DNA of 32,844 nucleotides from Candidatus Tiamatella sp. (GTDB taxonomy: Archaea > Thermoproteota > Thermoprotei_A > Sulfolobales > Acidilobaceae): NCBI GenBank assembly GCA_015522645.1, contig WALV01000029.1:1-32844 (forward strand). Direction: 5' to 3'. The notes beneath the pieces are model-generated. The model was given only the letters and a program-made list of their open reading frames with translations, ran no database searches and had not been told where the DNA came from. Of the stretch, positions 1 to 2,105 are shown piece by piece; the first letter of the stretch is position 1, and each line of letters opens with the position of its first letter. The position numbers and the translations under genes are program-made.

Positions 1-329
1 ATTTTAATTCTCTCAGGGTTGAAACCGGCTTCCTTAGCTTTTCTAAGGGCTGCATCTACTCTTCTCGCCGTCCTATCCGTACAGTCTGAAAGATAAGGGC
101 AATCCGTTCCATCTGCAGCGATAAATACTCCATCGAAACCCTGCTCAAGCGCTAGAACAATCCATTCCGGCCTTATCATAGATGAACATGGAAGCCTAAC
201 AATAGACGTGCTTGAAGGATAATGCATGTGCAGTAGCCCTGCATAGTCGATGCCGACATCGGATATTAGGTTAGTAGAAAAAACCAGTATGCGGGGATGG
301 AACTCTCCCCCTTTCTCGTTTTCTGCCAA
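1..329 (-). CDS. MvhD/FlpD-like iron-sulfur protein, partial (3' end outside window)
   Basis: The reading frame runs off the left edge; 109 residues are visible. It resembles the MvhD (methyl-viologen-reducing hydrogenase delta subunit) family, which carries a [2Fe-2S] cluster and passes electrons to HdrA-type partners. Family-like segments are ILVFSTN near residues 14-20, the G-x-D-Y-A-G-L-L turn at 26-33, PCSS at 47-50 and the DGVFIAADGTDCPY block at 66-79. The canonical N-terminal cysteine group (F-C-C-N-W-C) is replaced by F-S-T-N-L-I, so only C48, C77 and C83 remain; cluster binding is therefore uncertain. I chose the TTG start at 329 because GGGGG lies 7 bases upstream and no ATG is in a suitable place. 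It follows the TusA-like gene by 32 bases on the same strand, so it is probably the last visible gene of a three-gene operon. Family assignment is fairly sure; function is inferred. Confidence 0.7.
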   Translation of the reverse strand, partial: MAENEKGGEFHPRILVFSTNLISDVGIDYAGLLHMHYPSSTSIVRLPCSSMIRPEWIVLALEQGFDGVFIAADGTDCPYLSDCTDRTARRVDAALRKAKEAGFNPERIK

Positions 330-361
330 AACAATTCCCCCTTAAACTCTATGGGTGGGGG

Positions 362-622
362 CTACTTCTTCCTCTTGATGAATATTCGCGAGTACCCTGG
401 CTCCTCTATAACACCTAGGAATTCATGCCCCATCTTTTTAGCCCAGAGAGGTAGATCCCGTTTTGTCCCCGGATCCGATGATAATACTTCCAGTATACCT
501 CCTACGGGCACGCTTGAAATAGCTCTCTTAGCCGCTAACAATGGACCTGGACATGAGGTCCCCCGGGCATCCACAACTTTATCAGCCTTTAGATTCTTGA
601 GTTCATCTGGACTCATACTCAT
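362..622 (-). CDS. tusA: TusA/SirA-family sulfur carrier protein
   Basis: An 86-residue protein with the TusA fold signature: a D-A-R-G-T-S-C-P-G-P block in which C24 is the expected persulfide-carrying cysteine, then an alpha helix (LLAAKRAISSV), the G-G-I-L-E-V-L-S-S-D-P strand and turn, and a C-terminal strand. TusA proteins carry sulfane sulfur between rhodanese- or DsrE-type donors and acceptors in thio-modification, cofactor synthesis or dissimilatory sulfur metabolism. The ATG at 622 has GAGGTGA about 8 bases upstream; a second in-frame ATG lies two codons later. The gene sits between a DsrE2-like gene (28 bases upstream) and an MvhD-like gene (32 bases downstream), all on the minus strand. 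That pairing points to sulfur metabolism rather than tRNA modification, but this is inference. Confidence 0.88.
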   Translation of the reverse strand: MSMSPDELKNLKADKVVDARGTSCPGPLLAAKRAISSVPVGGILEVLSSDPGTKRDLPLWAKKMGHEFLGVIEEPGYSRIFIKRKK

Positions 623-650
623 GGATTATTCACCTCTATAGACTTCTTGT

Positions 651-1061
651 TTAGATGAAGAGGTTGATTTTGCCCTCTCTCATCTTCTCTATCCATTCGC
701 CGGCGCCAATGATGTCGTCAACCAGCTCTAGGTCCTCTTTCTTGACATTCCATATGTTCGCTGCGAGGCTGCATGCATAGATCTTTACTTTACCTAGTTC
801 CTTCGCCTGTTTCAGCAATTCAAACCACATTGGTAGTTTGAGTTCCTGAATTCTCTGGGCAACTTTCTCTCCTAGTTCTCCGAATTCGCTTAAATTCATA
901 TTTTGGTGCATTACATCCTTTTTGAAGGCGTATACTCCCCAGAGTTGTAGGAATATTTCTACTTCCATGTCCATCGATACTGCTCCGCTGGCTAGTATAG
1001 CTGCTCCTGTAAGGCGGTCTATGCTTCCGGACATTATGGTTAGGCACATTTTATCGGGCAT
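651..1061 (-). CDS. DsrE/DsrF/DrsH-like (DsrE2-type) sulfurtransferase
   Basis: A 136-residue protein resembling the DsrE2 family. It has an N-terminal beta strand (CLTIMSG), a helix rich in small residues, the M-E-V-E-I-F-L-Q-L-W-G strand-turn, and a late K-V-K-I-Y-A-C-S-L segment. C97 in that segment is the likely sulfur-carrying residue; C6 is a second cysteine. DsrE-type proteins hand persulfide sulfur to or from TusA. No membrane segment is visible, unlike some DsrE2 relatives. The start is taken as ATG 1061 because GGTGA lies 5 bases upstream; an in-frame GTG at 1070 falls inside that binding site. It is the first gene of the operon with the TusA-like and MvhD-like genes. The family call is good; the exact sulfur substrate is unknown. 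Confidence 0.78.
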   Translation of the reverse strand: MPDKMCLTIMSGSIDRLTGAAILASGAVSMDMEVEIFLQLWGVYAFKKDVMHQNMNLSEFGELGEKVAQRIQELKLPMWFELLKQAKELGKVKIYACSLAANIWNVKKEDLELVDDIIGAGEWIEKMREGKINLFI

Positions 1062-1114
1062 GGTTTTCACCGGTTACATTATTTTTTATTTTATTATATT
1101 TTAATTTTTATGTG

Positions 1115-1172: not shown

Positions 1173-1781
1173 TCATCCCTCGACGAGCTTTCTAAGCAAC
1201 AGGAAATGCTCAGCAGTCAAAGGGAACTCAGCTACACGTTCAATGGATACTTTCCCATCAGAAACAGACAATCTGCCAAATAAGAATGTCATTTCTCCCA
1301 AATTGGCGTCATAACCCATAACACTCCATAGCCGCAGGTACTTAAGTAATTCAATGTAGCTCAAGACACTAACATCAGCCTTAGTTATATCAGATAAGCA
1401 ACCTGACAGATAACCTCTAAGGCAAATCACTATATCAGATTTAAATGTCCTTTTAGCAAATTCTTCAAGTACATTCTTCAGGAATATCTCACACTCCTCC
1501 ATCCTCTCCATACCGCCTACAATCACTACAGTCGCCTGAGGCTCAAAAGCTAGAACTCCATCAACAGTCTTCTTCAATTCCTCATGCGACAATGGAAAAA
1601 ACCGGGCTATTCCACCTGCCAAACTCTCAAAAGTTGATATGAGAGACGAGGATGTAGCGAGACACTGATCACCCATCTGAGATAACACGGCTATCCTGTT
1701 ATAATCCCTCAAACTCTTACCCATAACTTCTCCATTAAGAATTCCAAGTCTAACTTTCTCCTCCGTTGTGAGGATTGTCAA
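1173..1781 (-). CDS. Hypothetical protein
   Basis: A 202-residue soluble protein that I do not recognise. It has no signal peptide, membrane segment or clear catalytic motif. There is an alternating helix/strand pattern: a helical N-terminus, a hydrophobic strand with small residues (A-T-V-V-I-V-G-G, about 83-90), then a second strand (DIVICLRGYLSGC) with cysteines. The GG after a strand could be a ligand-binding turn, but no family can be named. The start is TTG at 1781, supported by GGTGA 6 bases upstream. It is read in the same direction as the sulfur-carrier operon (DsrE2 start about 110 bases downstream), but an A/T-rich spacer with its own promoter-like sequence separates them, so co-transcription is uncertain. 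Codon use matches its neighbours and the frame is uninterrupted, so it is probably a real gene. Confidence 0.72.
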   Translation of the reverse strand: MTILTTEEKVRLGILNGEVMGKSLRDYNRIAVLSQMGDQCLATSSSLISTFESLAGGIARFFPLSHEELKKTVDGVLAFEPQATVVIVGGMERMEECEIFLKNVLEEFAKRTFKSDIVICLRGYLSGCLSDITKADVSVLSYIELLKYLRLWSVMGYDANLGEMTFLFGRLSVSDGKVSIERVAEFPLTAEHFLLLRKLVEG

Positions 1782-1946
1782 TTTTATTCACCATTATAAA
1801 TTAATATTATAATATAGGTTAAAAAATATTAATTACAATATTTTATATAAAAACAATAAATAAACACTGTTCGACCGCAAATACGATAATAACAATAAAA
1901 ACCAGAAAACACATCAAGCAACCATGATACTAGGTGATGAGAGGAA
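1782..1946. promoter_or_regulatory. A/T-rich divergent intergenic region with TATA-like elements
   Basis: This 165-base region separates the leftward hypothetical gene from the rightward mini-protein gene. The first 75 bases are very A/T-rich. A good rightward TATA candidate (TTTATATA) lies at 1842-1849, which would give the mini-protein a leader of roughly 70-80 bases. Several leftward TATA-like stretches lie near 1801-1830. A binding site GGTGATGAGAGG lies just before the mini-protein ATG. No RNA gene is evident. Confidence 0.4.
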
Positions 1947-2105
1947 ATGCCTAAAGAGTATATGTGCATTTGCACGGTAAAATGTATAGTACACGTAGAA
2001 GCAGAAGACCCCGAGGAAGCGATGGAGAATGCAGAGGAAGAAGCACAACTAGGGTGTGAAGAAGTAGAAGAAATAAATGAATGCGAGTGCAGTGAAGAAG
2101 AATAA
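1947..2105 (+). CDS. Cys-rich acidic mini-protein (52 aa), function unknown
   Basis: A short open frame encoding 52 residues: starts MPKEYMCICTVKC and ends ECECSEEE, then TAA. The ATG at 1947 is preceded by GGTGATGAGAGG (1933-1944), a strong archaeal ribosome binding site, which is the main evidence that the gene is real. The protein has six cysteines (7, 9, 13, 37, 46, 48) in C-x-C-x3-C and C-x-C patterns and is about one third Glu/Asp. A strand (VKCIVHVEAE), a helix (DPEEAMENAEEEAQLG) and another short segment suggest a small beta-alpha-beta fold. The cysteines suggest metal or Fe-S binding, or disulfides. It ends 6 bases before the converging FG-GAP gene. I do not recognise the family. Confidence 0.7.
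   Translation: MPKEYMCICTVKCIVHVEAEDPEEAMENAEEEAQLGCEEVEEINECECSEEE

Follow-up and report, generated by a model that had tools for sequence, protein, structure and literature searches.

Beside sulfur carriers, what is the role of an MvhD-like protein from which the usual cysteine motif of its family has disappeared? MvhD is the link by which electrons enter flavin-bifurcating Hdr complexes. The question is raised by the left end of the window, the whole stretch of 32,844 nucleotides of Candidatus Tiamatella sp. that was analysed. Between positions 1 and 1070, a DsrE-like gene, a TusA gene and a FlpD/MvhD gene follow one another on the minus strand. Since the window is one complete contig (C29) of its genome, the FlpD/MvhD gene at the left end is cut. 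Its product is called FlpD' here.

The Gene Series at the Contig End

The FlpD' gene (3–329, minus strand) has a TTG start at 329 and is open at the contig end, so that its first 109 codons are present. About 38 last codons, including the pair C114-x2-C117, lie beyond the contig and were read from a locus of the same genus (L015, genome G001). The window part matches PF02662 at 74.9 bits (cut-off 22.3), and the full-length protein of L015 does so at 90.7 bits. The gene before it encodes a TusA sulfur carrier (362–622, minus strand; PF01206, 79.8 bits against a cut-off of 28.6), the translation of which contains SCPGP and thus the cysteine of the CPGP motif. The first gene of the conserved set (651–1070, minus strand) encodes a DsrE/DsrE2-like sulfur carrier with matches to PF13686 (63 bits, cut-off 25) and PF02635 (34 bits). 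Its single cysteine (YACS) is kept in all 14 aligned archaeal copies. A sequence-only reading had described DsrE2-type and TusA-type genes that lead into an MvhD-like gene. The order is as described; the DsrE2 assignment is supported by PF13686 and not by the NCBIfam equivalog model (NF047629), of whose 210 bits the protein reaches 31.1.

Relocation of the Cysteines in FlpD'

The usual motif FxCNWC is replaced by FSTNLISD in the window, in agreement with the sequence-only reading, which gave F-S-T-N-L-I in place of F-C-C-N-W-C. An alignment of 97 profile-found FlpD sequences (23 encoded beside TusA, termed TusA-type, and 74 others; numbering of L015) revealed how far the change extends. C19 is present in 0/22 of the TusA-type sequences versus 69/73 of the others, and C22 in 0/23 versus 67/73. 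C73, in the motif GCHxGDC, is likewise missing (1/23 versus 70/73). C48 and C77 are invariant on both sides (22/22 and 74/74; 23/23 and 73/73). Three further cysteines mark the TusA-type sequences: C83 (23/23 versus 0/73), C114 (22/22 versus 1/73) and C117 (22/22 versus 0/73). FlpD' has therefore lost C19, C22 and C73, kept C48 and C77, and gained C83, C114 and C117. It does not carry the five usual cysteines of the FlpD/MvhD family (C19, C22, C48, C73 and C77), each of which is kept in 67 to 74 of the 73–74 comparison FlpDs.

The earlier statement that C48, C77 and C83 remain is right for all three positions and for the retention of C48 and C77, but C83 is a new residue. That the first cysteine group is lost also holds as far as C19 and C22 are concerned, and was incomplete, as C73 has gone with them. 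What does not stand is a plain loss. A compensating group was sought in the end of the protein that is missing from the window, and it was found there as CSVC (C114-x2-C117). This new C-x2-C, which reads KMAAICSVCAEPF in L015, is present in every full-length relative. Because the CSVC pair and C83 were gained, the cysteines of FlpD' have been moved more than lost, and a plain loss of the cluster was rejected on the same grounds. A mutation in a single genome or an assembly error was rejected as well, since every readable relative shows the change and the operon continues on another contig of the same genome (C27).

The fold of the protein is that of MvhD. An AlphaFold2 model of FlpD', built on seven aligned sequences, has a mean pLDDT of 82 and falls below 50 at residues 19–21, around the old motif, which is its least certain part. 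The best Foldseek matches were 5odh, 5odc, 8rvu and 7bkb (E 3.5e-11 to 1.8e-9), with Z scores of 17.8–18.4 against 8.9 for lumazine synthase, the next fold. Strands of the model end just before its residues C43, C72 and C109/C112, which correspond to C48, C77 and C114/C117, and its residue C78 (C83) stands within the opening turns of the helix that follows. Judging from this modelled topology, one edge of the sheet would hold all of these cysteines.

In another family of the order, three degenerate FlpDs (L050:1483-1908, L052:1489-1914 and L054:1495-1911) have lost the cysteines of the first motif with no replacement. An HdrA-like ORF adjoins these genes and TusA does not.

Association with TusA

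TusA adjoins FlpD' at all 28 loci, which come from 27 genomes (G610 has two) and comprise the 23 first found and five found later in Actinomycetota. The CSVC pair is present in 27/27 readable TusA-adjacent FlpDs (22/23 in the first set, where the window copy is cut, and 5/5 in the second), and it is the only pair that all of them share. Neither TusA nor DsrE was found near the other FlpDs, at 68 loci (74 rows of the alignment) and 23 more, for which the flanks covered about 1.5 kb in most cases and ranged from several kb up to about 16 kb in the rest. CSVC was found in 0/97 of these FlpDs without a TusA nearby (74 + 23). The comparison FlpDs are part of the matches listed; in one search, about 150 matches were obtained, of which 30 were taken to loci. 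DsrE accompanies TusA at 15/15 archaeal loci and, as detected by an archaeal model, at 7/13 bacterial loci; one bacterial locus, L063, has a DsrE by Pfam. The two types of FlpD can coexist in one genome, as in G044 (L019, L022), G444 (L096, L143) and G610 (L110, L122, L124).

The full new five-cysteine set is present in 25 of the 27 TusA-adjacent FlpDs other than that of the window. Both exceptions have CSVC. One is split, so that C48 is unread (G531), and the other is an outlier, L192:1453-1947 (equal to L216:8144-8638, G858), which lies next to TusA in the same operon and has lost C48, C77 and C83. Its cysteines at 22, 73, C114 and C117, positions read by eye, make a third set. Because CSVC is kept here despite the loss of the three others, C114 and C117 are regarded as the core of the new set. 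Whether the cysteine loss is shared near TusA, a check that the sequence-only reading had proposed, can thus be answered with yes, and the FlpDs without TusA differ.

Evolutionary History

In a tree of the FlpDs from which the cysteine columns had been removed, the 23 TusA-type sequences fall on one side of a single branch (SH-aLRT 100), in an alignment of few columns with long branches. The change is consequently neither chance nor a single-genome event, the latter an option that had been raised against a new role, but is common to 23 sequences that form one clade. Trees of HdrA-B, the second HdrA-like subunit of the operon, agree, with one clade at SH-aLRT 100 that held 20 of 49 rows and then 25 of 54. 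The clade spans Thermoproteota, Conexivisphaerales and Actinomycetota. Its archaeal part comprises the family of the window, another family of its order, Conexivisphaerales, the family of Vulcanisaeta and one more; its bacterial part is Actinomycetota. The HdrA-B of the outlier L192/L216 is the deepest branch of the clade, and its placement is unsure because this branch is long. The association with TusA thus probably arose once and was then inherited and transferred. As there is one clade, the 28 loci should not be counted as 28 independent cases.

The Complete Operon

The sequence-only reading had asked whether Hdr genes follow, and HdrA-like genes indeed stand downstream, both in L015 and in the window's own genome. 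L015 gives the whole operon, with FlpD' of 147 aa, HdrA-A of 446 aa, HdrA-B of 652 aa, a winged-helix protein of 95 aa and a QmoC-like protein of 364 aa, the last of which combines an HdrC-type domain with a membrane part that matches QmoC and the nitrate-reductase gamma subunit. In the window's genome, the rest of the operon is on contig C27 (1–4229, 91% identity); about 545 query bases between the C29 and C27 matches are covered by neither contig. The archaeal order is DsrE, TusA, FlpD', HdrA-A (about 450 aa), HdrA-B (about 650 aa), winged-helix protein and QmoC-like protein. The operon is conserved in Archaea and Actinomycetota, and at the loci scanned FlpD' has a gene of its own, which precedes HdrA-A.

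The HdrA-like subunits also differ from those of related operons. The same HdrA-HdrA-QmoC layout without TusA was found in six operons (L132, L141, L143, L145, L020 and L023), in which FlpD is canonical and none of the eight cysteines in the inserted ferredoxin of HdrA-B is missing (6/6). The archaeal TusA-type HdrA-B lacks the inserted-ferredoxin cysteines C252 (0/9) and C255 (0/12), and in all eight bacterial copies the ferredoxin insert is absent. The N-terminal cysteines of HdrA-B are kept in 20/20 TusA-type copies. In bacteria, the HdrA-A at L126:5740-8457 (minus strand) is 905 aa long and contains a GltD-like NAD(P)H module as an insert (PRK12771, 434 bits). Other bacterial HdrA-A proteins have a comparable length, and the scan for the insert covered L126. 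At 4/8 bacterial loci, a CCG (HdrB) domain is encoded a short way downstream. In the archaeal operon, no PF02754 is among the families listed for the four downstream products of L015 (for HdrA-A, 25 of 27 families).

The presence of two HdrA-like subunits and a QmoC-like membrane subunit is a Qmo-like trait. The QmoC-like protein reaches 192.4 bits (L015) and 198.1 bits (window's genome) with the QmoC equivalog model NF038018, below the cut-off of 300 bits, which was exceeded in none of 398 genomes. APS reductase, the expected company of a Qmo complex, is present in only part of the genomes. Among the 22 operon-bearing genomes that were counted (the five later Actinomycetota genomes stand outside this count), AprA is over the cut-off in seven and present as a split copy in an eighth, and a long DsrA match of 322–384 bits, below the cut-off, occurs in eight. 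Both AprA and DsrA are absent in 14/22, including the window's genome, where the search for AprA gave just a generic match of 35 bits. The 14 comprise six genomes of the window's order, seven of Actinomycetota (all seven tested) and the incomplete genome G477. A role linked to APS reductase can therefore not be general.

Comparison with Known Systems

Among the nearest relatives are MvhD/FlpD (PDB 5odc chain D; 8rvu chain F, ElpC; 7bkb chain F), with which FlpD' shares the fold, the adjoining HdrA and the residues C48 and C77. According to an excerpt of PMC12350162, MvhD/ElpC carries a [2Fe-2S] cluster near the flavin of HdrA. FlpD' differs from these proteins in that it is without C19, C22 and C73, has C83, C114 and C117, and is always adjacent to TusA.

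The Qmo complexes are a second group. In the available part of Neukirchen et al. 2023 (PMC10504309), a 'type II' QmoAB is placed in V. moutnovskia, nearer to HdrA and with a role to be clarified, and type II Qmo is also found without Dsr and Apr. Type II QmoABC resembles the operon in its pair of HdrA-like subunits and its QmoC-like subunit, the operon's QmoC-like protein scoring 192–198 bits with NF038018. However, the operon has a separate and altered FlpD, DsrE and TusA, a QmoC below the cut-off, and no AprA or DsrA in 14/22 genomes. The QmoB of Thermosulfurimonas bears an MvhD-like domain at its C-terminus, as excerpts of PMC4911364 have it, whereas no such fusion is present in the operon, where FlpD' is a gene of its own. 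Strict membership of Qmo was rejected on the QmoC score and on this missing MvhD fusion. The partial text of PMC9872577 reports qmoABC for V. souniana, whose sulfate reduction it calls controversial. In the genome of V. souniana (G329), the sole QmoC-family match is the QmoC-like gene of this operon, and because there is no other match, the reported qmoABC is very probably this operon. The sulfate question in V. souniana is thereby touched, as its only qmoC-like gene belongs to an operon that occurs without AprA or DsrA in the majority of the genomes tested.

Two sulfur systems share the carriers. The sHdr sulfur-oxidation cluster of Sulfolobales and Acidithiobacillus, given in an excerpt of PMC3654217 as hdrC1-B1-A-orf2-C2-B2 with dsrE and tusA, also combines HdrA-like flavoproteins with neighbouring DsrE and TusA. 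In contrast, the archaeal operon has two HdrA-like subunits, a FlpD and a QmoC-like subunit; membership of sHdr was rejected for it, with no HdrB/CCG subunit among the families listed (L015). The YTD cluster of sulfur disproportionators (yedE, tusA, dsrE) unites TusA and DsrE as well; YedE was not noticed in the operon, and the portion of PMC12998232 at hand describes no Hdr genes for it. In the literature searched, which did not extend to Chernyh et al. 2020 on V. moutnovskia, no description of the operon or of the cysteine change was recognised, and no priority is claimed for the operon.

Proposed Mechanism and Alternatives

A clade of FlpDs that has discarded three cysteines and adopted three others, only beside sulfur carriers, indicates a change of job, and together with its sulfur-carrier genes FlpD' suggests a specialised machine for bound sulfur. 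Since a role linked to APS reductase is not general and TusA is the constant partner, the complex is read as one in which electrons pass between the sulfane sulfur bound to TusA on one side and quinone or NAD(P)H on the other. Our proposal, about evenly balanced between acceptance and doubt, is that the operon encodes a sulfane-sulfur:quinone oxidoreductase complex with FlpD' as its TusA-facing site, bearing a relocated cluster or a dithiol. DsrE would load sulfane sulfur onto TusA, and through QmoC the complex would connect this sulfane sulfur with the quinone pool, electrons being exchanged between the two; in bacteria, the GltD-like module in HdrA-A may bring in NAD(P)(H). We infer the centre bound by FlpD', the direction of the electrons and the contact with TusA as follows. 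FlpD' would be the subunit in contact with TusA. The moved cysteines, centred on C114/C117, may form either an Fe-S cluster in a new place or a dithiol/persulfide site, which would pass sulfur or electrons to the HdrA flavins. Either direction is possible, and in the window's lineage, with neither AprA nor DsrA, reduction of sulfane sulfur to sulfide is favoured. The sequence-only reading had offered sulfur transfer or a different cluster. With CSVC present, a different cluster gains over no cluster, and it is by its context alone that sulfur transfer is favoured, with TusA always adjacent and 14/22 genomes without AprA and DsrA.

How does this bear on the type II Qmo complexes? It is conceivable, if still doubtful, that the type II QmoABC of Vulcanisaeta is a sulfane-sulfur:quinone (or NAD(P)H) oxidoreductase and not primarily a partner of APS reductase, the rebuilt FlpD performing the sulfur chemistry. 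The persulfide of TusA would then dock on FlpD', and C114-x2-C117 with partner cysteines would take the sulfur or the electrons, in replacement of the HdrB centre. If this were true, the MvhD fold would carry an active site of a new kind, common to Archaea and Actinomycetota. The opposite assignment makes the complex a type II Qmo, the quinone-linked donor or acceptor of AprAB, to which TusA and DsrE are incidental and for which FlpD' is a wire with a moved cluster. It draws on the V. moutnovskia placement in the excerpt of PMC10504309, which also has type II Qmo without Dsr and Apr, on the qmoABC of V. souniana (PMC9872577, in part), where the sole QmoC-family match is that of the operon, and on the presence of AprA in 8/22 genomes. 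In the eight genomes with AprA and DsrA, the complex could indeed serve APS reductase. We nevertheless consider it unlikely, with neither enzyme in the other 14, among them the window's genome and 7/7 Actinomycetota, and with the adjacency of TusA kept at 28/28 loci in two domains.

The remaining alternatives concern what the cysteines bind. The five cysteines may hold a [2Fe-2S] cluster in a new place, in which case FlpD' would still just transfer electrons. In its full form, this explanation has an ordinary [2Fe-2S] bound via C77, C83, C114 and C117, electrons running between the HdrA subunits, and sulfur chemistry taking place elsewhere, for example in a partner enzyme. Four or more conserved cysteines in the new set, the retained MvhD fold and the intact N-terminal cysteines of HdrA-B (20/20) are all consistent with it, and the CCG domain downstream at 4/8 bacterial loci could do the disulfide chemistry. 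It leaves unexplained, however, why the shift is confined to the neighbourhood of TusA, and no CCG/HdrB subunit is among the families listed for the archaeal operon (L015); we would call it rather improbable, if worth keeping in view. Far less probable, and scarcely credible in our estimate, is that FlpD' is a degenerate FlpD with only a bridging role between subunits, its new cysteines serving as zinc ligands or in structural disulfides. A C-x5-C with a C-x2-C would suit a zinc site too, and the relatives' degenerate FlpDs without replacement cysteines (L050, L052 and L054) offer a parallel. Five cysteines strictly conserved in both Archaea and Bacteria, together with the redox complex to which FlpD' belongs, lower the likelihood of this explanation and do no more than that.

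Accompanying Genes

Several other genes were noticed around the operon. The winged-helix protein between HdrA-B and QmoC occurs in archaea and bacteria (e.g., L015:12088-12375 and L098:8143-8445) and may be either a regulator or a structural subunit. Right after the QmoC-like gene in G044, L019:1331-5378 (minus strand) encodes a molybdopterin oxidoreductase, a 4Fe-4S subunit and a cytochrome b561-type subunit. The oxidoreductase has a TAT signal and is PhsA-like, below the cut-off; the trio is possibly a sulfur or thiosulfate reductase that shares the quinone pool.

Directly upstream of DsrE in the window, an ORF of 202 aa (1173–1781, minus strand) belongs to an unknown family, with no match in Pfam or NCBIfam. 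It was found in this position at four of the 15 archaeal loci scanned (the window, L015, L016 and L019) and was undetected at the others; it is probably co-transcribed with the operon, in this lineage only. Divergent from it lies a small acidic, cysteine-rich ORF of 53 aa (1944–2105, plus strand), likewise without a Pfam or NCBIfam match. L015 and L016 show overlapping reverse-frame ORFs, which suggests that the small ORF is conserved in the genus.
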